Below are positions 7,465 through 19,179 of a stretch of DNA of 64,000 nt, piece by piece (positions within the stretch are counted from its first letter, which is position 1; each line of letters opens with the position of its first letter). Made by a program: the position numbers and the translations under genes. The DNA comes from Methylobacterium sp. WL1 (GTDB taxonomy: Bacteria > Pseudomonadota > Alphaproteobacteria > Rhizobiales > Beijerinckiaceae): contig NZ_CP042823.1 in the NCBI RefSeq assembly GCF_008000895.1, positions 2,570,001-2,634,000 of the forward strand, in the 5' to 3' direction. A model generated the notes under the pieces. It made no database searches, had not been told where the DNA came from, and saw only the letters and a program-made list of their open reading frames with translations.

Positions 7465-8403
7465 GTGGCCATCGACCATATCGACCTCAGCCGGATTGAC
7501 CTGAACCTGCTCGTCGCCCTCGATGCGCTGCTCGACGAGCGCAGCGTCACCCGGGCGGCGGCGCGGATCGGCGTCGGCCAGTCGGCGATGAGTTCGAGCC
7601 TCGCCAGGCTGCGCCGCCTGTTCGACGACGAATTGCTCACGCGCGCGCCCGACGGGATGCGGCCGACGCCGCGGGCCCTGAAACTGGTCGAGCCGTTGCG
7701 GGCCACGTTGCGGCAGATCCAGGCCCTCGTCCACCGGGAGGAGCGGTTCGATCCGGCCACCGTCGAGCGCAGCTTCACGCTGAGCCTGCCGGACAGCGTC
7801 GAGGTCCTGATCGGGCCCCGGCTAATCGCGCAGCTGCGCCGGGACGCGCCGGGGATCCGGCTGCTGCTGCGTTCCGTCGAGCGGGCTCGCATCCTCGACG
7901 AGCTGGATGCCGACCGGGTCGATCTGGCCATCGGGTTCTTCACCGAGGGGCAACTGCATCACAAGCAGCGGCTGCTCTACCGCGACAGCTACGTGGTCCT
8001 GTTCAACGCCGACCTGATCGGGATCCAGCCGCCGATCGGGCTCGATGACTACCTGCGTTTCCCGCACGTCCTGACCTCGTTGCGGGAGACGGCCCACGGA
8101 GTCGTGGACGACGCGCTGGCGGCGCTGGGGCGCTCGCGCATCCTCGCGGTGACCACGCCGCGCTTCCTCGTGGTGCCGTTCATGGTCCGCGCCGCGCCGG
8201 TGATCGCCACCATGCACGCGAGGCTGGCGACTTCCTTCGCCAGCACGCTCTCCCTGGCGGTCAGCCCGGTGCCGGTGGCGCTCGACGAGGTGGTGGTGTC
8301 GATGCTGTGGCACGCCTCCTACGATCGCGATCCCGCCCATCGCTGGCTGCGCGATTTGCTGGTGCGCCTCGCCAACGAAGCCCCGACCTTCGGGATGCTG
8401 TGA
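7465..8403 (+). CDS. LysR family transcriptional regulator (NodD-like class)
   Basis: A 312-residue LysR regulator starting at GTG 7465. The N-terminal winged helix-turn-helix (about residues 10-69) shows the class pattern DLNLLVALDALLDERSVTRAA followed by QSAMSSSLARLRRLF; the remainder is the periplasmic-binding-like effector domain (LSLPDSVEVLIGPRL, VDLAIGF). The phrase order is that of the NodD/NahR-like branch. It lies 52 bp downstream of the GMC oxidoreductase on the same strand, which suggests co-transcription or regulation of that gene. The ligand is unknown. Confidence 0.9.
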   Translation: MAIDHIDLSRIDLNLLVALDALLDERSVTRAAARIGVGQSAMSSSLARLRRLFDDELLTRAPDGMRPTPRALKLVEPLRATLRQIQALVHREERFDPATVERSFTLSLPDSVEVLIGPRLIAQLRRDAPGIRLLLRSVERARILDELDADRVDLAIGFFTEGQLHHKQRLLYRDSYVVLFNADLIGIQPPIGLDDYLRFPHVLTSLRETAHGVVDDALAALGRSRILAVTTPRFLVVPFMVRAAPVIATMHARLATSFASTLSLAVSPVPVALDEVVVSMLWHASYDRDPAHRWLRDLLVRLANEAPTFGML

Positions 8404-10269: not shown

Positions 10270-11922
10270 ATGCCCAAGGGCTCAGATCTACTCGTTGCGG
10301 CCCTGGAGAACGAGGGCGTCGACCGCATCTTCGGCATACCGGGCGAGGAGAACCTCGACGTCGTCGAGTCGCTCCGTACCTCCAAGATCGAGCTGGTGCT
10401 GACCCGTCACGAGCAGGCGGCGAGCTTCATGGCGGCGACGCACGGCCGTCTCACCGGCCGGCCGGGCGTGTGCCTCTCGACGCTGGGCCCGGGCGCCCTG
10501 AACTTCTCGACCGGCGCGGCCTACGCCCACCTCGGCGCGATGCCGATGATCATCATCACCGGCCAGAAGGGCATCCTGTCCTCGCGGCAGGCGAAGTTCC
10601 AGATCGTCGACGTGATCAGCTCGATGAAGCCGATCACCAAGATGGCCCGGCAGATCGTCTCGGCCTCCTCGATCCCGACGATCGTCCGCGACGCCTTCCG
10701 GGTCGCCACCGAGGAGCGTCCCGGGCCGGTGCTGCTGGAGCTGCCGGAGGACATCGCCGCCGAGCAGGCCGAGGCCTACGTCGTGCCGCCGCATCCGATC
10801 GACATCCCGGTCGCCCACCCGACCGCGATCGAGCGGGCCGCCGCCATGATCCTCGCGGCCAAGCGGCCGCTCGTCATGCTGGGGGCCGCCGCCAGCCGGC
10901 CGCGCGCCACGGGCGACCTCGGCGGCTTCGTCCGGCGCACCCAGATCCCGTTCTTCACCACCCAGATGGGCAAGGGCACGGTCGCCAGCGGCACCAGCCT
11001 CTACATGGGTACCGCGGCACTCTCCGAGCGCGACTACGTACACGAGGCGATCGACAAGGCCGACCTGATCATCGCGATCGGCCACGACACGATCGAGAAG
11101 CCGCCCTTCTTCATGGGCCAGGCCGACCAGAAGGTGCTCCACATCGGCTACATGCCGGCCAACGTCGAGCAGGTCTACTATCCCGACGCCGAGGTGGTGG
11201 GCGACCTCGGGCCGACCCTGCAGCTCCTCGCCGACAAGCTGGAGGGCAAGCTGCCGAACGCCGGCGCCCTGCTGCACCTGCGCGAGCACATCCTCGACCA
11301 CATCGCCGACCGGGCCGGCGAGGACCGCTTCCCGGTCACGCCCCAGCGGCTGGTGCGCGACGTCCGGCGGGTGATTCCGGAGGACGGGATCGTGTGCCTC
11401 GACAACGGCATGTACAAGATCTGGTTCGCCCGGAACTACCGCACCTACGTCGCCAACACGCTGCTGCTCGACAATGCGCTCGCCACCATGGGCGCGGGCC
11501 TGCCCTCCGCCATGATGGCGGCGATGCTCTACCCGAACCGCCGCGTCATGGCGGTGTGCGGCGACGGCGGCTTCATGATGAACAGCCAGGAATTGGAGAC
11601 CGCGGTGCGGCTCAAGCTCAACCTGGTCGTGCTGATCCTCGACGACTCGGCCTACGGGATGATCCGCTGGAAGCAGGCGGTCGATAAGTTTGCCGACTAC
11701 GGGATGACCTTCGGCAACCCGGATTTCGTCCTCTACGCGCAGGCCTACGGTGCCAAGGGCCACCGCGTGGAGGCCGTCAACGACCTGGTCCCGACCCTGG
11801 ACCGGGCGTTTGCCGAAGGCGGCGTGCACCTGGTCGCGGTACCGATCGATTACTCGGAGAACACGCGTGTTCTCGTTGAGGAGCTGCGCGAGAAGGTAAA
11901 GGATTTCGAGCCGGCCGAGTGA
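10270..11922 (+). CDS. Thiamine-diphosphate-dependent decarboxylase (acetolactate synthase-like; candidate 2-oxoglutarate decarboxylase)
   Basis: A 550-residue ThDP enzyme of the acetolactate synthase/pyruvate decarboxylase superfamily. Glu48 (TRHEQ), which activates the cofactor in this family, is present. The ThDP/Mg motif begins GDGG at 431, but the position that is usually Asn-Asn/Asn-Asp reads LDDS (458-459). The N-terminal phrase IFGIPGEENLD differs from classical catabolic AlsS/BudB (GIPGAKID) and, from memory, matches the group containing cyanobacterial 2-oxoglutarate decarboxylase, often annotated as acetolactate synthase. There is no ilvN-type regulatory subunit or acetolactate decarboxylase next to it; instead an Fe-alcohol dehydrogenase follows by 43 bp and succinate-semialdehyde dehydrogenase lies further on. 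Superfamily is certain; the 2-oxoglutarate substrate is inferred from context. ATG 10270 was chosen over an upstream GTG-like extension. Confidence 0.85.
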   Translation: MPKGSDLLVAALENEGVDRIFGIPGEENLDVVESLRTSKIELVLTRHEQAASFMAATHGRLTGRPGVCLSTLGPGALNFSTGAAYAHLGAMPMIIITGQKGILSSRQAKFQIVDVISSMKPITKMARQIVSASSIPTIVRDAFRVATEERPGPVLLELPEDIAAEQAEAYVVPPHPIDIPVAHPTAIERAAAMILAAKRPLVMLGAAASRPRATGDLGGFVRRTQIPFFTTQMGKGTVASGTSLYMGTAALSERDYVHEAIDKADLIIAIGHDTIEKPPFFMGQADQKVLHIGYMPANVEQVYYPDAEVVGDLGPTLQLLADKLEGKLPNAGALLHLREHILDHIADRAGEDRFPVTPQRLVRDVRRVIPEDGIVCLDNGMYKIWFARNYRTYVANTLLLDNALATMGAGLPSAMMAAMLYPNRRVMAVCGDGGFMMNSQELETAVRLKLNLVVLILDDSAYGMIRWKQAVDKFADYGMTFGNPDFVLYAQAYGAKGHRVEAVNDLVPTLDRAFAEGGVHLVAVPIDYSENTRVLVEELREKVKDFEPAE

Positions 11923-11965
11923 TTCCGTCGCAGAATCGATCCCGGCACAACAACAGGGCAGCGCG

Positions 11966-13141
11966 ATGAACCCGTTCACCTTCCAGACAACCCCGAACGT
12001 GTTGTTCGAGGCCGGCGCCGCGAAGAAACTTCCGGAGATCGTCGGCACCTTCGGGGCCAAGCGCGTTCTGCTGGTCACCGACAAGGGCGTGCGCAAGGCC
12101 GGCCTGACCGAGGCCGCCGAGGCAGCGCTGGCGGCGGCCGGCATCGCCATCGACGTCTACGAGGACGTGGTCGCCGACCCGCCCTCCACGGTGATCGAGG
12201 CGGCGGCCAAGCGGGCCCGGGAACTCGGGACCGATCTCGTCCTGTCGATCGGCGGCGGCTCGGCGCTCGATACCGCCAAGCTGGTGGCCTACCTGGCGAA
12301 GTCCGACGAGCCGCTCGACTCGATCTACGGCGTCGGCTTGGCCAAGGGCGACCGGCTGCCGCTGATCCTGGTGCCGACCACCGCCGGGACAGGCTCCGAG
12401 GTCACGCCGATCTCAATCGTCACGACGCCGACCACCGAGAAGAAGGGCGTCGTCGCGCCGAAACTCCTGCCTGACTGGGCGGTACTCGATCCCGAGTTGA
12501 CCCTGGGCCTGCCGGCCCACGTCACCGCGGCCACCGGCATCGACGCCATGGTCCACGCCATCGAGGCGTTCACCAGCAAGAACAAGAAGAACCCGATCTC
12601 GGATCAGCTCGCCAAGCAGGCCCTGGCCCTGCTCTCGGCGAACATCCGCACCGCCTGCTCGGACGGCCGCAACCTCGAAGCGCGCTCCGGCATGCTGCTC
12701 GGTTCGATGCTCGCCGGCATGGCCTTCGCCAACGCGCCGGTGGCGGCGGTGCACGCGCTGGCCTATCCGGTCGGCGCGATCTTCCACGTGCCGCACGGGC
12801 TCTCCAACGCCCTGGTGCTGATGGGGGTGATGCGCTTCAACCTGTCCCACGCGGAGGCGCTCTACGCCGAGCTGGCGCCGATCCTGGATCCGGCGGCGGC
12901 CGATCTCCCGCCGGCCGAGGCGGCCGCCCGCTTCGTCGAAAGCCTCGACGCGATCTGCCGCGACTGCAAGGTCCCGGCCTCGCTCGCGGAGGTCGGTGTC
13001 GCGCAGAAGGATCTGGAGCGGATGGCCACCGACGCGATGAAGCAGACGCGGCTCCTCGTGAACAATCCCCGCGAGGTCACCTACGACGACGCCTACGCGA
13101 TCTACAGCGAGGCGCTCGGCGAGGCGCGCTCGGCGGCCTGA
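11966..13141 (+). CDS. Iron-containing (group III) alcohol dehydrogenase; candidate 4-hydroxybutyrate dehydrogenase
   Basis: A 391-residue group III alcohol dehydrogenase. It has the dinucleotide motif IGGGSALDTAK (95-105) and the four metal ligands Asp193, His197 (GIDAMVHAIEAF), His263 (AAVHALAYPVG) and His277 (VPHGLSNAL). Members reduce aldehydes or oxidise alcohols, including succinic semialdehyde/4-hydroxybutyrate, 1,3-propanediol and lactaldehyde. It lies 43 bp after the ThDP enzyme and 58 bp before phaE, all on the same strand, so one transcript is likely. The 4-hydroxybutyrate assignment comes from neighbours only; an acetaldehyde or other alcohol substrate is possible. Confidence 0.9.
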   Translation: MNPFTFQTTPNVLFEAGAAKKLPEIVGTFGAKRVLLVTDKGVRKAGLTEAAEAALAAAGIAIDVYEDVVADPPSTVIEAAAKRARELGTDLVLSIGGGSALDTAKLVAYLAKSDEPLDSIYGVGLAKGDRLPLILVPTTAGTGSEVTPISIVTTPTTEKKGVVAPKLLPDWAVLDPELTLGLPAHVTAATGIDAMVHAIEAFTSKNKKNPISDQLAKQALALLSANIRTACSDGRNLEARSGMLLGSMLAGMAFANAPVAAVHALAYPVGAIFHVPHGLSNALVLMGVMRFNLSHAEALYAELAPILDPAAADLPPAEAAARFVESLDAICRDCKVPASLAEVGVAQKDLERMATDAMKQTRLLVNNPREVTYDDAYAIYSEALGEARSAA

Positions 13142-13199
13142 AACGGCCCGACAACCGGCCCGCCAAGGAGGCCGGAGAACCGCGAGGAGGTGCGCCGTC

Positions 13200-14027
13200 A
13201 TGGACCAGTTCGACGCGTTCAAGGCGATGGGCGAGTTCTGGACCCGTGCCGGCGCCGGCTTCTTCGCCCCCGGGGCCGCGCCGGGCTTCTCGTGGCCGAC
13301 CCCGCCGCAGACCGATCTCTCCAGCCTCGCCACGGCGCAGAGTCATCTCGCCCAGGCCTGGGCTTCGGCGACCGCCCTGTCGCAGACTTTGACCACATCG
13401 CTGCAGGGGGGCGCCGGAGCGCCGGACCCGACCGCCGGAGCGGTGCTGGCGCGTATCTTCGATCCACAGGCCTGGCTCGGCGGCTCGGCCGAGTTCGACG
13501 CGGCTTTGACGCGGATGTCCGAGGGGCCCCAGCTCGCCGACCTGTGGCAGACCGAGCGGCGCTACGGCGCGCTGTTCACCGCCTGGGCGGCGTTGCGGCG
13601 GGCGCAGGCCGAGCACCAGGCCGTGATGCTGGAGGCCTGGACCCGGGCGGCCGGGACCTTCGCCAAGGAGGCCAATGACCGAGCCGAGCGCGGCGAGGGC
13701 TTCAGCTCCGCCCGCGAGATGATGACCCGCTGGACCGAGACCGCCAACGCGGTGCTGCTGGATGTCCAGCGCTCCGAGGCGTTCCTGGCCTCGCAGCGGG
13801 TGGTGCTGAAGGCATCGACCGACCTGCGGCTCGCCCAACAGGACCTCTCGGCCTTCCTGTCGGATTTCTACGGGCAGCCGACCCGGGCCGAACTGGACGA
13901 CGTGCAAAAGAGCCTGACCGAGCTGCGCCGGGAAGTCCGGGCCCTGCGCCGGGAGCGCCGGGAGGCTGCCCGGGCCTCCAGGGCCAACGGCACCGCCGCG
14001 CCGGCAACGGAGGACGCGCATGGCTGA
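13200..14027 (+). CDS. phaE: Class III polyhydroxyalkanoate synthase subunit PhaE
   Basis: A 275-residue Ala-rich helical protein. The C-terminus holds the recognisable PhaE ending FYGQPTRAELDDVQKSLTEL followed by a basic Arg-rich helix. PhaE is the non-catalytic partner that forms the active class III synthase with PhaC at the granule surface. A strong ribosome-binding site (GAGGAGG, 13184-13190) precedes the ATG. The last eight bases overlap the phaC start, so the subunits are translationally coupled, which supports the call. The family is divergent in sequence, so the assignment leans on the C-terminal motif plus context. Confidence 0.87.
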   Translation: MDQFDAFKAMGEFWTRAGAGFFAPGAAPGFSWPTPPQTDLSSLATAQSHLAQAWASATALSQTLTTSLQGGAGAPDPTAGAVLARIFDPQAWLGGSAEFDAALTRMSEGPQLADLWQTERRYGALFTAWAALRRAQAEHQAVMLEAWTRAAGTFAKEANDRAERGEGFSSAREMMTRWTETANAVLLDVQRSEAFLASQRVVLKASTDLRLAQQDLSAFLSDFYGQPTRAELDDVQKSLTELRREVRALRRERREAARASRANGTAAPATEDAHG

Positions 14028-14079
14028 CAAGGGCATGGCTGACAAGGGCATGGCCGGCGAAGGCATGGCCGACAAGGGG
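14020..14079 (+). repeat. Four 15-bp tandem repeats at the phaC start
   Basis: Units begin at 14020, 14035, 14050 and 14065; the first two are identical (ATGGCTGACAAGGGC) and the others differ by a few bases. Each unit begins with an in-frame ATG, so copy-number change would keep phaC in frame while adding or removing five residues. Only the first ATG is well spaced from the ribosome-binding site. Confidence 0.85.
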
Positions 14080-15258
14080 GGAGCGGACCGGGCCGCCCCG
14101 AAGGCTCCGACTACGCCGCTCCCGCTCAACCCCGCCGAGATGATGGCCGAGGTCGCCGAGCTCGGCCGCCGCATCAGTGCGGGTGCCAAGCTGTTCGCGG
14201 ACGTGCGCGACGCCGACGTGCAGATCGCCACCACGCCCAAGGACCTGGTCTGGAGCCAGGACAAGGTCTCGCTCTACCGCTACCGGCCGCTTGCCGAGAG
14301 CAAGGGCCTGCCGCCGGTGCTGATCGTCTACGGTCTGATCGGCCGCTACACGATGGCCGATCTGCAGGAGGACCGCTCGCTGGTCCGCAACCTGCTCAAT
14401 CTCGGCCTCGACCTCTACGTGGTCGATTGGGGCAATCCCGGCCGGGCCGACCGCTACGTCACCATCGACGACTACGTCGACGATTACCTCGCCGAATGCG
14501 TCGCCTTCATCGGAGCAGCGGCGGGGCGCGAAAAAATCAACCTGCTGGGGATCTGCGAGGGCGGCGTCTTCACCACCTGCTACGCGGCACTGTACCCGGA
14601 GCGCGTCAACGCGATGGTGCTGACGATCACGCCGATCGACTTCCACGCCGATACACGCGAGTCCCGGGCCGGCCACGGCTTCATCAACGTCTGGACCCGC
14701 TCCCTGTCGCCGGAAGACGTGGACCGCCTGATCGATGCGCAAGGCTCGCTGCCCGGGGCGTTCATGGGCTCGGTGTTCTCGATGATGACGCCGATGCGGA
14801 CCATGACGAAGTACAACCTGGACTTGCTCGACGCCCTCGACGACAAGAAGAAGTTCCTGAACTTCCTGCGCATGGAGAAGTGGATCGCCGACCGGCCGGA
14901 CCATCCCGGCGAGGCGGCCAAGCAGTGGCTCAAGGATCTCTACCAGGACAACAAGCTGGTCCAGAGCACCTTCGTGCTCGGCGGCCGCACGGTCGATCTG
15001 AAGCGGATCGCCTGCCCGGTGCTGAACGTCTTCGCCCAGGACGACCACATCATCCCGCCGGCGACGTCGCAGGCGCTCAAGGACAAGATCGGCACCGACG
15101 ACTACACCGAGCTCGGCTTGCCCGGCGGCCATGTCGGCGTCTTCGTCGGCGGCAAGGCGCAGAAGTTGCTGGGCTCCGGCATCGCCGATTGGCTGGGTGC
15201 GCGTGGGGAGGGTGATGCGCCGCGACAGGGGAGCTGCCGGGTGCACGTTCGTGGATGA
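14020..15258 (+). CDS. phaC: Class III polyhydroxyalkanoate synthase catalytic subunit PhaC
   Basis: A 412-residue alpha/beta-hydrolase-fold synthase that polymerises hydroxyacyl-CoA. The lipase-like box reads GICEGG with nucleophile Cys179; the other triad members are Asp341/342 (FAQDDHIIPP) and His371 (PGGHVGVF). The length is class III (about 355 core) rather than class I/II (about 560), matching the adjacent phaE. A GGAGGA ribosome-binding site sits at 14009-14014. The N-terminus begins with four near-identical pentapeptides encoded by 15-bp repeats, giving four in-frame ATGs. The last 17 residues run past the usual end into repeat-rich DNA. Substrate range cannot be read from the sequence; class III enzymes prefer short-chain monomers, including 4-hydroxybutyryl-CoA in some cases. 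Confidence 0.93.
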   Translation: MADKGMADKGMAGEGMADKGGADRAAPKAPTTPLPLNPAEMMAEVAELGRRISAGAKLFADVRDADVQIATTPKDLVWSQDKVSLYRYRPLAESKGLPPVLIVYGLIGRYTMADLQEDRSLVRNLLNLGLDLYVVDWGNPGRADRYVTIDDYVDDYLAECVAFIGAAAGREKINLLGICEGGVFTTCYAALYPERVNAMVLTITPIDFHADTRESRAGHGFINVWTRSLSPEDVDRLIDAQGSLPGAFMGSVFSMMTPMRTMTKYNLDLLDALDDKKKFLNFLRMEKWIADRPDHPGEAAKQWLKDLYQDNKLVQSTFVLGGRTVDLKRIACPVLNVFAQDDHIIPPATSQALKDKIGTDDYTELGLPGGHVGVFVGGKAQKLLGSGIADWLGARGEGDAPRQGSCRVHVRG

Positions 15259-15276
15259 GAGGCGCGCCGCTTATCC

Positions 15277-15439
15277 CCCTCCCCCCTCTGCGGGGGAGGG
15301 TACCCTGCGCAGCAGGAGGGGAGAGAGGCAGCGCGACAGTAGTGGATGGGGCTTCCGGCGCGACTTCTCTGGATACCGCGCTCCCCTCTCCCGACCTGGC
15401 CTGACGGCCGGCCCACCCTCCCCCGCAGTAGGGGGAGGG
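15277..15439. repeat. Pair of dispersed palindromic repeats (REP-like, CCCTCCCCC hairpins)
   Basis: Two hairpins with identical arms, CCCTCCCCC and GGGGGAGGG, occur at 15277-15300 and 15416-15439, each with a six-base loop, and C/T-rich and G/A-rich tracts lie between them. Such composite palindromes are common intergenic repeats in Rhizobiales. They follow phaC directly and may act as a terminator or mRNA stabiliser. Confidence 0.7.
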
Positions 15440-15498
15440 AAACCGCGCGGATCTCGCGCCATCTTGCGGGTTTGTATCGCCGGTCGATCCAAAGCTCT

Positions 15499-15623
15499 CC
15501 CTCATCCTGAGGTGCGGTCGGGCAGCGGCCGCCTCGAAGGAGCCCTCCAGAAATCGCTGCGATCCCTGGAGGGCTCCTTCGAGGCCCGGCGGTCTGCGAT
15601 CGCCGGGGACCTCAGGATGAGGG
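15499..15623. repeat. 125-bp composite inverted repeat (rhizobial-type intergenic palindrome)
   Basis: Outer arms CCCTCATCCTGAGGT (15499-15513) and its exact complement (15609-15623) flank inner arms of 20 bp (15531-15550 and 15566-15585) that are also perfectly complementary. The element resembles the CTCATCCTGAGG family of dispersed repeats in Methylobacterium and Bradyrhizobium. It ends about 80 bp before the CoA-transferase gene and separates it from phaEC. Confidence 0.8.
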
Positions 15624-15701
15624 CGGTGGGTAGGATCGACCGGTCGAATGATCGCCGCGCTTGGCGCGGCGCTCTCAATTCCAGGCTCCGAGGATAACCG
15701 C

Positions 15702-17714
15702 ATGGGCAGCCTGAAGAACAAGATCGTCAGCGCCGACGAGGCGCTCGCCATCCTGCAGGACGGCGACATGGTCGCGGTCTCGGGGTTCGTCGGTATCGGT
15801 ACGCCGGATGAGCTGATCCTGGCCCTGGCCCGGCGGTTCGAGGCCGGCCAGGGCCCGCATGGGCTCGGGCTGATGTTCGCCGCCGCGCCCGGCGATGGCA
15901 AGGAGCGCGGCCTCAACCGGCTGGCGATCCCGGGGCTGGTGCGTCGCGTCGTCGGCGGTCACTGGGCGCTTGTACCCAAGCTGGCGAAGATGGCGATCGC
16001 CGGCGAGATCGAGGCCTACAACCTGCCGCTCGGGGTGGTCTCGCATCTCTACCGGGAGATCGCCGCCCACACGCCGGGCCACATCACCAAGGTCGGGCTG
16101 CGCACCTTCGTGGATCCGCGGCTCGAAGGCGGCAAGCTCAACGCCGTGACCCGCGAGGACCTGGTCAGCGTGGTCGAGCTCGGCGGCGAGTCCTGGCTGC
16201 ACTACAAGGCCTTTCCGGTGAACATCGCGCTGATCCGCGGCACCACGGCGGACCCGGCCGGCAACATCACCATGGAGCGCGAGGCGCTCACCCTCGACAA
16301 CCTCGCTGCCGCCATGGCGGCCAAGAACTCGGGTGGCTTCGTCATCGCCCAGGTCGAGCGCCTAGCCGAGGCCGGCTCGCTCGCGCCCCGCGAGGTGCAG
16401 GTACCCGGGGTGCTGGTCGATTGCGTGGTGCTGAGCCAGCCGGAGAACCACCGTCAGACCTACGGCACGCCCTACAACCACGCCTTCACGGGCCGCCAGC
16501 GCGTGCCGCTCGACCGGATCCCGCCGATCCCGCTCGATGCCCGCAAGGTCATCGCCCGGCGCTGCGCCTTCGAGCTGCCCCCCGGCGGCGTGGTCAATCT
16601 CGGCATCGGCATGCCCGAGGGGGTGGCGGCGGTCGCCGCCGAGGAGCGGGTGCTGAAATACCTGACGCTCACCGCCGAGCCCGGAGTGATCGGCGGCTTG
16701 CCGCAGGGCGGGCTCGATTTCGGCGCCGCCCTCAACCCGGCGGCGGTGCTGCACCAGAACCAGCAATTCGACTTCTACGACGGCGGCGGCCTCGACCTCG
16801 CCTGCCTGGGGCTCGCGCAATGCGACGCCGAGGGCAACGTCAACGTCAGCCGCTTCGGCAAGCGGCTCGCCGGCGCCGGCGGCTTCATCAACATCTCGCA
16901 GAACGCCAAGAGCCTGGTGTTCGCCGGCACCTTCACGGCCGACGGGCTGGAGGTGGTCGTCGAGGGCGACGGCATCCGGATCGTCACCGAGGGACGCTCC
17001 CGGAAGTTCATCGCCGCTGTGGAGCAGGTGACCTTCTCGGGCGCTTACGCGGCCGAGCGTGGCCAGCCGGTGCTCTACGTGACTGAGCGCTGCGTGTTCC
17101 GCCGGACCAAGGCCGGCATGGAGCTGGCCGAGGTCGCCCCCGGGGTCGACATCGCGCGGGACATCCTCGGGCAGATGGGATTCACGCCGATCGTGCAGGA
17201 CCCGAAGCCCATGGATCCGCGGCTGTTCCGCGATGCCGTCATGGGGCTGGAGCCCTGGCTCCTCGGGCTCTCCCTGTCTGAGCGGATCAGCTACGACCGG
17301 GAACGCAACATCCTGTTCTCGAACCTCGAAGGCTTCCAGGTCAGGACTATCGACGACGTCGAACTGGTGCGCCGCGAATACGAGCGCGCCTGCCAGGAAA
17401 TCGGTCGCAAGGTCCACCTGATCGCCAATTACGATGGATTCGAGATCGACCCGACAGTGAGCGATGCCTATTTCTCGGCGATCGCTTATCTGGAGAACCG
17501 GTACTACGAGACTGCTTCGCGCTACACGACGAGCGCGTTCTTGCGATTAAAACTCGGTGCCTCGTTGGCGAGCCGCGATCTGGCTCCGCATGTCTTCGAG
17601 ACAAAAGCCGAGGCGCAGGCGAGGAATACGGCCCAGAGCGTGCCCCTCAAGCCGCGGACGGATCTGTCTCAGCCAGACAGGCCGCAGCCGCCGAAGGAAC
17701 CGTTGAATGCCTGA
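15702..17714 (+). CDS. Family I CoA-transferase (propionate/acetoacetate CoA-transferase type) with C-terminal extension
   Basis: A 670-residue protein. Residues 1 to about 517 are a fused alpha-beta family I CoA-transferase like Pct/YdiF; the catalytic glutamate is Glu326 in LTAEPGVIGG, and the glycine motif GVVNLGIGMPEG is present. A further 150 residues of unfamiliar sequence follow. Such enzymes move CoA between acetyl-CoA and small hydroxy- or keto-acids (propionate, lactate, 3- or 4-hydroxybutyrate). ATG 15702 with an upstream CGAGGATA was chosen. The 3' end overlaps the succinate-semialdehyde dehydrogenase start by 8 bp, implying coupling. Between phaEC and ssadh, a role in making hydroxybutyryl-CoA for polymerisation is a reasonable inference. 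Confidence 0.88.
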   Translation: MGSLKNKIVSADEALAILQDGDMVAVSGFVGIGTPDELILALARRFEAGQGPHGLGLMFAAAPGDGKERGLNRLAIPGLVRRVVGGHWALVPKLAKMAIAGEIEAYNLPLGVVSHLYREIAAHTPGHITKVGLRTFVDPRLEGGKLNAVTREDLVSVVELGGESWLHYKAFPVNIALIRGTTADPAGNITMEREALTLDNLAAAMAAKNSGGFVIAQVERLAEAGSLAPREVQVPGVLVDCVVLSQPENHRQTYGTPYNHAFTGRQRVPLDRIPPIPLDARKVIARRCAFELPPGGVVNLGIGMPEGVAAVAAEERVLKYLTLTAEPGVIGGLPQGGLDFGAALNPAAVLHQNQQFDFYDGGGLDLACLGLAQCDAEGNVNVSRFGKRLAGAGGFINISQNAKSLVFAGTFTADGLEVVVEGDGIRIVTEGRSRKFIAAVEQVTFSGAYAAERGQPVLYVTERCVFRRTKAGMELAEVAPGVDIARDILGQMGFTPIVQDPKPMDPRLFRDAVMGLEPWLLGLSLSERISYDRERNILFSNLEGFQVRTIDDVELVRREYERACQEIGRKVHLIANYDGFEIDPTVSDAYFSAIAYLENRYYETASRYTTSAFLRLKLGASLASRDLAPHVFETKAEAQARNTAQSVPLKPRTDLSQPDRPQPPKEPLNA

Positions 17715-19179
17715 GTCCGACACTTTCACCCTGAAGGACCGGAGCCTCCTGGTCGAATCCTGCCTGATCGGCGGGGAATGGTCGAAGGCCGGGTCCGGCA
17801 CGATCGACGTCACCAACCCGGCCACCGGCGCGGTGATCGCCCGGGTGCCGAACGCCGGCGCCGACGAGACCCGCCGGGCGATCCAGTCCGCCCACGCGGC
17901 CTATCCGGCCTGGCGCGCGAAGACCGCCAACGAGCGCGCCGTGCTGCTGCGCAAGCTCGCCGCCCTGGTCACCGAGAACCAGGAGGATCTGGCGCAGATC
18001 CTCACCGCCGAGCAGGGCAAGTCGCTGACCGAATCCCGCGGCGAGGTCGCGATGTCGGCGGCCTACGTGCTGTGGTTCGCCGAGGAGGCGCGGCGCGTCT
18101 ACGGCGACGTGATCCCCTCCCCCTGGGGTGACCGCAAGATCCTGGTCACCAAGGAGCCGGTGGGCGTGGTCGCGGCCATCACCCCGTGGAACTTCCCGTC
18201 CTCGATGATCGCCCGCAAGATCGCCCCGGCGCTGGCCGCCGGCTGCCCGATCGTGATCAAGCCGGCCTCGCAGACCCCGCTCTCGGGCCTCGCCTGGGGT
18301 GTGCTGTGCGAGAAGGCCGGCTTCCCGGCCGGGACCGTCAGCATCCTCACTGGCTCGGCCCGGGCCATTGGCGGTGAGATGACCGGCAACCCGCTGGTCA
18401 AGAAGATCACGTTCACCGGCTCCACCGAGGTCGGCAAGGTGCTGCTCGAGCAGGCTTCTCACACGGTGAAGAAGGTCTCGATGGAGTTGGGCGGCAACGC
18501 GCCGTTCATCGTGTTCGACGACGCCGACCTCGACCGGGCCGTGGCTGGCGCGATGCTCGCCAAGTACCGCAACTCCGGCCAGACCTGCATCTGCACCAAC
18601 CGCTTCCTGGTGCAGGACGGGATCTACGACGCCTTCGCGGACAAGATGGCCGAGGCCGCCAACCGCCTGAAGGTCGGCAACGGCATCGAGGAGGGCGTCG
18701 CCCAGGGGCCGCTGATCGACATGGCCGCGGTGGAGAAGACCGAGGCCCATATCCGCGACGCCGTCGAGAAGGGCGGCCGGGTGGTCGCGGGCGGGCATCG
18801 CCACGCGTCGGGCGGCCAGTTCTTCGAGCCGACCGTGATCACCGGCGCGACCCCAGACATGGCGGTGGCCCGGGAGGAGACGTTCGGGCCGCTGGCGCCG
18901 CTGTTCCGGTTCCGCGACGAGGCGGAGGCGATCCGCATGGCCAACGACACCGAGTTCGGCTTGGCCTGCTACTTCTACACCCGCGACCTCGGCCGCACCT
19001 TCCGGGTCGCCGAGGCGCTGGAATACGGCATGGTCGGGATCAACGAGGGCATCATCACCACCGAGGTGGCGCCCTTCGGCGGCGTGAAGGAATCCGGCCT
19101 GGGCCGCGAGGGCTCCTACCAGGGCATCGAGGATTACCTAAACACCAAGTATCTCTGCGTCGGCGGCCTCGGCGCGTGA
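17707..19179 (+). CDS. gabD: NAD(P)-dependent succinate-semialdehyde dehydrogenase
   Basis: A 490-residue aldehyde dehydrogenase of the GabD type. It has [10 protein letters not shown] for cofactor binding, general base Glu260 (MELGG) and catalytic Cys294 in GQTCICTNR. The CxC pair (Cys294/Cys296) is the SSADH hallmark that can form a regulatory disulfide. It converts succinic semialdehyde to succinate in the GABA shunt and in 2-oxoglutarate bypasses. The ATG overlaps the CoA-transferase stop by 8 bp. No GABA transaminase gene is nearby, so the semialdehyde may instead come from the ThDP decarboxylase upstream. Glutarate-semialdehyde is an alternative substrate. Confidence 0.92.

Follow-up and report, generated by a model that had tools for sequence, protein, structure and literature searches.

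A conserved Methylobacterium operon that probably turns 2-oxoglutarate into a 4-hydroxybutyrate polyester

What does a gene cluster produce, and from which precursor, when it places a thiamine diphosphate (ThDP)-dependent enzyme, named acetolactate synthase in the databases, in front of the two subunits of a polyhydroxyalkanoate (PHA) synthase? The question is raised by a 64,000-nucleotide stretch of Methylobacterium sp. WL1 (positions 2570001–2634000 of contig NZ_CP042823.1, in a genome of 6.25 Mb; hereafter the window), in which six open reading frames (ORFs), all on the plus strand, encode the ThDP enzyme, an iron-type alcohol dehydrogenase (Fe-ADH), PhaE, PhaC, a CoA-transferase and the succinic semialdehyde (SSA) dehydrogenase GabD. 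Gene content, order, conservation and residues make it probable that this operon forms a polyester of 4-hydroxybutyrate (4HB) from 2-oxoglutarate. The operon comprises:

10270..11922, plus strand: ThDP enzyme, proposed 2-oxoglutarate decarboxylase (database name acetolactate synthase large subunit); NF006187 at 834 bits, cut-off 509; lysines K383 and K468; neighbours of its homologues
11966..13141, plus strand: Fe-ADH, proposed SSA reductase of GhbD type; Pfam Fe-ADH match, 68% identity to the Sinorhizobium meliloti HM006 enzyme, metal ligands
13200..14027, plus strand: PhaE, PHA synthase subunit; PF09712 at 66.4 bits, cut-off 25.7
14020..15258, plus strand: PhaC, class III PHA synthase with a GICEGG box; TIGR01836 at 381.5 bits, cut-off 365.3; Cys-Asp-His
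15259..15701, no strand: 443-bp gap with palindromic repeats (a pair at 15277–15439, a hairpin at 15531–15585)
15702..17714, plus strand: family I CoA-transferase, proposed to form 4HB-CoA; PF01144 at 114 bits; best match in the PDB YdiF, at 431 bits
17707..19179, plus strand: GabD, SSA dehydrogenase; TIGR01780 at 688.7 bits, cut-off 646.35; best PDB matches are SSA dehydrogenases

In the proposed route the ThDP enzyme would decarboxylate 2-oxoglutarate to SSA and CO2, the Fe-ADH would reduce SSA to 4HB at the expense of NAD(P)H, the CoA-transferase would convert 4HB to 4HB-CoA, and PhaE–PhaC would polymerise the latter to poly-4HB (P4HB), with GabD passing surplus SSA to succinate. Such an overflow would run beside the ordinary tricarboxylic acid (TCA) cycle, consuming NAD(P)H, releasing CO2 and storing C4 units, and would thus act as a sink for carbon and reductant. 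Reduction of SSA is taken from the available text of a 2025 preprint, which reports it for the 68%-identical homologue (PMC12636752); what we infer concerns the ThDP enzyme's substrate, the donor of CoA, the granule monomer and the role as a sink.

Coordinates, strand and domain models agree with the six co-directional genes described in a first-pass annotation of this DNA, and both 8-bp overlaps that it listed (phaE/phaC and CoA-transferase gene/gabD) are present; its consecutive run stands for order and strand, and has to be amended for the 443 bp with palindromic repeats between PhaC and the CoA-transferase gene. This gap differs in size in other genomes of the genus, being short, for example, in locus L043. 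The favoured start of the CoA-transferase is the ATG at 15702, and the query used for searches began two codons 5′ of it, at 15696. Active-site residues, described earlier as intact, are indeed so: PhaC keeps Cys-Asp-His; the Fe-ADH keeps its metal ligands D193/H197/H263/H277 (D, H, H and H in all 18 aligned rows); the ThDP protein, with its three TPP domains (Pfam), retains Glu48 and the GDG motif; and a Glu of the CoA-transferase aligns with a Glu of YdiF that we take to be the catalytic residue. Some narrower models score below their cut-offs, namely TIGR01834 for PhaE (74 vs 155), NF008415 for GabD (731 vs 828) and, for the Fe-ADH, the Cupriavidus-type 4-hydroxybutyrate dehydrogenase model NF058672 (256 vs 500 bits).

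Recurrence of the cluster was assessed with the ThDP family profile NF006187 in 61 genomes, 37 of them from the window's genus (its own counted); 25 genomes score over the cut-off, including 18 of the genus (own included), and the neighbourhoods of all 26 loci above that score, one of them the window itself, were examined. Fourteen of the 18 ThDP-holding genus genomes, again counting the own one, carry all six genes, contiguously in 13, while in the fourteenth (G035) the first five stand in a row and two other ORFs intervene before GabD, some 2.1 kb downstream, so that conservation across Methylobacterium, the comparison called for in the first-pass annotation, is evident. The ThDP gene comes first in every complete operon seen in the genus; in genome G001 it is accompanied by a different aldehyde dehydrogenase. 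Five within-genus comparisons of nonsynonymous to synonymous substitution rates (dN/dS) gave 0.05–0.20 for the ThDP gene, 0.07–0.23 for Fe-ADH, 0.17–0.61 for PhaE, 0.07–0.32 for PhaC, 0.03–0.20 for the CoA-transferase and 0.09–0.48 for GabD. Since the same order is found again in other genomes of the genus and outside it, and dN/dS lies mostly at 0.03–0.25, the arrangement is not due to chance. The operon PhaC occurs in 42 of 111 genus genomes (E ≤ 1e-100), two of these being just 47% identical and perhaps of another kind, and in 42 of 72,556 plasmid records (E ≤ 1e-60). A small plasmid of G035 carries a second ThDP–Fe-ADH–PhaE copy with a broken PhaC. Operon copies with PhaC in two frames were also observed on plasmids of Methylobacterium sp. 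CB376 and 4-46 (L054, at 12733–13844, and L211), and no CoA-transferase match was found in the L054 and L211 stretches.

The database name of the ThDP enzyme is a poor guide to its substrate: the window protein falls below the cut-offs of the models for the acetolactate synthase AlsS (NF006378, 443 vs 510 bits; TIGR02418, 409 vs 551 bits), and NF006187, itself named acetolactate synthase, gives 877 bits for a Nostoc protein (L101) whose gene adjoins an aldehyde dehydrogenase gene, so that the label spans cyanobacterial enzymes. Available text of PMC10418658 reports that the ThDP enzymes of Synechocystis, Synechococcus PCC 7002 and Microcystis were assayed as 2-oxoglutarate decarboxylases (KGDs), that aldehyde formation by the Microcystis enzyme was undetectable with pyruvate and with four other 2-oxo acids, and that docking put two of its lysines, K386 and K471, near 2-oxoglutarate. 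Microcystis positions were mapped onto the window protein by motifs rather than from that sequence (offset 2 at Glu50 and 3 from 382 on; Gln254 and Tyr531 left out), and eight of them match, E50, K386, A408, M410, D435, D462, Y465 and K471, the two lysines corresponding to K383 and K468 of the window. Lysine stands at both positions in 41 of 41 window-type rows, two of which are one plasmid and one (L048) a 37% outlier, whereas two AlsS proteins encoded beside budA have H or Y at the first and Q at the second, residues absent from the window enzyme. KGD-type loci number at least 118, from which 99 rows were used (14 lacked a match of more than 400 residues and five more were discarded as too short); among these listed rows position 471 holds lysine in 79, histidine in 19 and asparagine in one, and V382, A384, H385, K386 and W388, being set by the KGD search pattern, carry no weight in KGD-type rows.

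Gene context points to 2-oxoglutarate. A Bosea vaviloviae plasmid (NZ_CP017148) encodes, in order, an aconitase that passes the AcnA cut-offs, a dehydrogenase of the isocitrate/isopropylmalate family, the ThDP enzyme, Fe-ADH, PhaE, PhaC, CoA-transferase, a phasin and an alpha/beta hydrolase; in L033, from genome G035 of the window's own genus, an isocitrate dehydrogenase 77% identical to the Bosea protein stops roughly 50 bp short of the ThDP gene; and fragments or interrupted matches of this dehydrogenase precede the ThDP gene in L196 and L197 and are found on the opposite strand in L207 and L208. Five further operons (L124, from a Rhizobiaceae metagenome-assembled genome, L202, L203, L216 and L246) have a KGD-type ThDP enzyme with the motif DVGAHK before Fe-ADH–PhaE–PhaC–CoA-transferase; those of L124, L202, L203 and L216 share 54–60% identity with cyanobacterial enzymes and branch on the KGD side of the tree, from which L246 was left out. 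More widely, 42 window-type loci (own excluded) have as a near neighbour on the same strand an aldehyde dehydrogenase in 14, an alcohol dehydrogenase in 21 and either in 35, with figures of at least 55, at least seven and at least 62 among 123 loci classed as KGD-type, many of them incomplete stretches and one, L065, lacking the motif. A glutamate synthase of flavin mononucleotide type is a neighbour in two window-type and at least eight KGD-type loci. Upstream isocitrate dehydrogenase and aconitase, KGD-type replacements of the ThDP gene, the kept lysines and the 68%-identical GhbD homologue together favour the route from 2-oxoglutarate to a 4HB polyester that had been put forward at the outset.

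Several observations weigh against this reading. Three genus genomes (G014, G019 and G023) hold the ThDP gene with no query gene adjoining, and outside the genus the operon PhaC is rare (six of 289 in a class sample and three of 397 in an order sample, own included, E ≤ 1e-80). Four Microcystis residues, V382, A384, H385 and L467, are replaced by N, M, Y and M in the window enzyme, which is 40–42% identical to the cyanobacterial enzymes and lies outside their clade; in all five KGD-type operon enzymes position 471 is H instead of K; and the Bosea dehydrogenase has isocitrate dehydrogenase as its best model, yet stays below that cut-off (443 vs 510 bits). Two plasmids, L052 (Skermanella) and L057 (Caballeronia), pair a window-type ThDP enzyme with a zinc-type alcohol dehydrogenase and a CoA-transferase, and no PhaE or PhaC was seen in these stretches, for which reason further uses of 4HB-CoA, or of a different hydroxyacyl-CoA, may exist; in L052 the gene for an L-arabinonate dehydratase also lies upstream and that for a MetX-like esterase downstream. 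The same genome encodes elsewhere a 2-oxoglutarate dehydrogenase E1 component (sucA, 1119 bits), a class I PhaC (742 bits) and PhaB (366 bits), and in rhizobia the ThDP enzyme appears as two ORFs, divided near residue 170, in six of 13 copies. Finally, the trees attach two long-branched AlsS proteins to the KGD side (97/81 and 93/84).

Those two maximum-likelihood trees, of 62 and 49 rows, place the window-type enzymes in a single group (100/100) with PDB 13bb as neighbour and the cyanobacterial KGDs in another; the window protein is 43% identical to 13bb, 30–36% to AlsS and 29–30% to the genome's own paralogues resembling acetohydroxyacid synthase (AHAS). Grouping window-type and KGD-type enzymes together against AlsS and two own AHAS-like paralogues is not rejected (approximately unbiased test, p-AU 0.223). 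The tree thus files the window enzyme neither as a cyanobacterial-type KGD nor as AlsS, and, the window enzyme lying outside the cyanobacterial clade, the tree called for earlier is not sufficient on its own to fix the substrate; phylogeny as sole judge of substrate was dropped on the grounds of that placement and the p-AU value. Gene context was relied on instead, and the enzyme, set apart by clade and identity, is not classed with the cyanobacterial-type KGDs and is proposed to work like one.

The presence of sucA also bears on the first-pass suggestion that the cluster bypasses 2-oxoglutarate dehydrogenase: no such bypass is needed, and a TCA bypass by necessity is ruled out. The accompanying remark that phaA, phaB and 2-oxoglutarate dehydrogenase genes are lacking here holds for the six-gene run and not, as regards sucA and PhaB, for the genome, phaA not having been searched for. 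With sucA, the class I PhaC and PhaB elsewhere in the genome, the operon coexists with a gene for the E1 component of 2-oxoglutarate dehydrogenase and with ordinary polyhydroxybutyrate genes, and this gives room to the alternative that survives best, that the polymer is mainly 3-hydroxybutyrate (3HB) or a copolymer, PhaEC also accepting 3HB-CoA and 4HB being a minor unit. Class III synthases are known for 3HB, and this genome encodes a PhaB. In the operon loci examined, however, PhaEC accompanies Fe-ADH and mostly the CoA-transferase, and the operon PhaCs mostly differ in their lipase box: of 34 operon-type loci, some being the same plasmid or genome twice, 30 have GICEGG and three GICQGG (L064 has no match), against GICQGG in 32 of 41 other loci. 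The nine GICEGG cases among the latter comprise seven that are the window's or other operons' genes again and two from G184, a short contig on which only PhaE and PhaC are recognised. The window PhaC, over the class III cut-off and with PhaE adjoining as in canonical class III systems, is 40–45% identical to sampled class III PhaCs of other proteobacteria and has GICEGG where these have GICQGG; the branch separating operon PhaCs from the others carries 93/77 and is not starred. A link of GICEGG to 4HB specificity is speculation. A largely 3HB polymer is accordingly judged unlikely, though a good deal less so than the alternatives that follow, and P4HB is preferred.

The origin of the SSA is best discussed against the system described in the available text of the preprint (PMC12636752). 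On pSymA of S. meliloti HM006 the genes ghbD, phaE, phaC2, ghbT and acs form the loci pha-1/pha-2, and purified GhbD reduced SSA with NADH or NADPH; in HM006 nodules SSA and γ-hydroxybutyrate (GHB) rose, granules were absent without the locus, and symbiosis was restored by loss of ghbD and not of phaC2. A P4HB cycle was proposed, with γ-aminobutyric acid (GABA) as the likely source of SSA in bacteroids, and two annotated pseudogenes were noted upstream of the HM006 genes (PMC12636752). In that preprint the words ‘decarboxylase’, ‘acetolactate’ and ‘ketoglutarate’ are absent from the text, and ‘GC-MS’ and ‘NMR’ from the main text; the bacteroid expression literature, in the portions available, yielded nothing on this operon. 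Relative to the window the HM006 stretch (L207) is 68% identical in Fe-ADH (over 384 residues), 58% in PhaC and 58% in CoA-transferase, so that for its Fe-ADH and PHA genes the window operon has a homologue studied by experiment. Fe-ADH, PhaE, PhaC and CoA-transferase stand in the same order in both; as additions of the window, an uninterrupted ThDP gene precedes them and gabD follows the CoA-transferase, and no match to acs occurs in the window. HM006 has acs, and its SSA is ascribed to GABA.

Thirteen rhizobial ThDP copies in ten loci were surveyed. Two are continuous (L197 and L064), four contain internal stops (the first copies of L196, L200 and L210, and L209), L199 is a remnant, and the six two-ORF copies (the second copies of L196, L200 and L210, and L198, L207 and L208) lie at:

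L196, 18213–19798
L198, 4270–5819
L200, 15706–17066
L207, 4500–6094
L208, 4509–6085
L210, 13126–14735

Each of the six has a start codon (ATG, GTG or TTG) that the tail of its first ORF overlaps and that a GGAGG-like sequence closely precedes; at the division point L197 lacks two bases present in L207, and Pfam limits put the division after the N-terminal and before the central TPP domain. Up to a dS of about 0.8 neither half has lost its open frame, and Glu48 and Lys383 are kept in eight of eight aligned copies and Lys468 in all seven reaching that site, with altered surroundings. Rhizobial dN/dS is mostly 0.35–0.9, and above 1 in three close pairs, against 0.05–0.20 in Methylobacterium; the Fe-ADH gene beside the second ThDP copy of L196 is itself in two frames. 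A reading of these copies as plain pseudogenes is weakened by the coupled restart and the kept catalytic residues, while the dN/dS values leave it some weight; possibly they encode a two-subunit decarboxylase. The two annotated pseudogenes of HM006 are presumably its two ThDP ORFs. An acetate–CoA ligase gene follows the operon in L064 (Rhizobium johnstonii pRlX2) and in L197 (S. meliloti ml21), with a phasin gene as well in L064.

These rhizobial loci supply the case for a second alternative, in which the path from SSA to P4HB is as proposed and SSA comes from GABA catabolism, the ThDP enzyme having another role: the preprint favours GABA (PMC12636752), and with four of 13 ThDP copies interrupted and one a remnant, Fe-ADH–PhaEC may work without the ThDP enzyme there. 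In Methylobacterium, though, that gene is under purifying selection and first in each complete operon seen, KGD-type enzymes occupy the same slot in five operons, and isocitrate dehydrogenase, alone or with aconitase, precedes the gene in homologous ones, which makes GABA as the source in the window's operon improbable. Supply from 2-oxoglutarate remains the preferred account, and on balance, with appreciably less assurance than for the window itself, the system may be described as a patchy, partly plasmid-borne alphaproteobacterial operon that spills TCA carbon and reductant into P4HB through either of two 2-oxoglutarate decarboxylase subfamilies, sometimes with its own isocitrate dehydrogenase and aconitase; the rhizobial decarboxylase would be encoded by two coupled subunit genes, perhaps mistaken for pseudogenes, so that bacteroid SSA need not derive from GABA. 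A third alternative takes the ThDP enzyme for a genuine acetolactate synthase or pyruvate decarboxylase, in a cluster making another hydroxyacid polymer or in mere neighbourhood; it agrees with the database name and with trees compatible with AlsS kinship, and is very improbable in view of the AlsS scores and identities, the lysines, the SSA dehydrogenase and SSA-reductase homologue in the operon, and the Nostoc score on the same model.

Among known systems, the cyanobacterial shunt of 2-oxoglutarate decarboxylase and SSA dehydrogenase (PMC10418658, as far as available) resembles the window in its NCBIfam model and in catalytic and lysine residues, and a semialdehyde dehydrogenase gene adjoins many loci; identity and clade set the two apart, and the window adds reduction, CoA activation and polymerisation. 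Synechococcus PCC 7002 engineered with ogdA, gbd1, cat2 and phaABEC follows the same logic from 2-oxoglutarate to a 4HB polyester, according to the available text (PMC8659255, PMC7147479), with genes from several source organisms and phaAB for 3HB, whereas the window version is natural and self-contained. No earlier description of a version fed by 2-oxoglutarate was found in the open-access literature, subscription papers not having been searched; relative to the P4HB route just proposed for S. meliloti, what is new is an own 2-oxoglutarate decarboxylase. P4HB is a medically used polyester, and the literature, in the parts available, has called for study of an unexplained route in Hydrogenophaga pseudoflava. 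If the proposal is true, a natural operon, whose PhaC occurs in over a third of sampled genus species, offers a ready enzyme set, and the rhizobial pathway linked to nitrogen-fixation loss gains a testable source of SSA; the family named acetolactate synthase would seem to be partly a decarboxylase family.

Regulation was not used as evidence, since the region upstream of the window operon has no FNR/FixK, NifA or sigma-54 box distinguishable from those in random window stretches. One further gene lies upstream:

7465..8403, plus strand: LysR-type regulator (domain match, conservation), adjoining some genus operons; putative regulatory role

In rhizobial locus L208 a sigma-54 −24/−12 consensus match with zero mismatches precedes the ThDP gene by about 139 bp, and among 300 random stretches of the window, which is more GC-rich, none came closer than two mismatches; the corresponding match in L207 is one base short in spacing.

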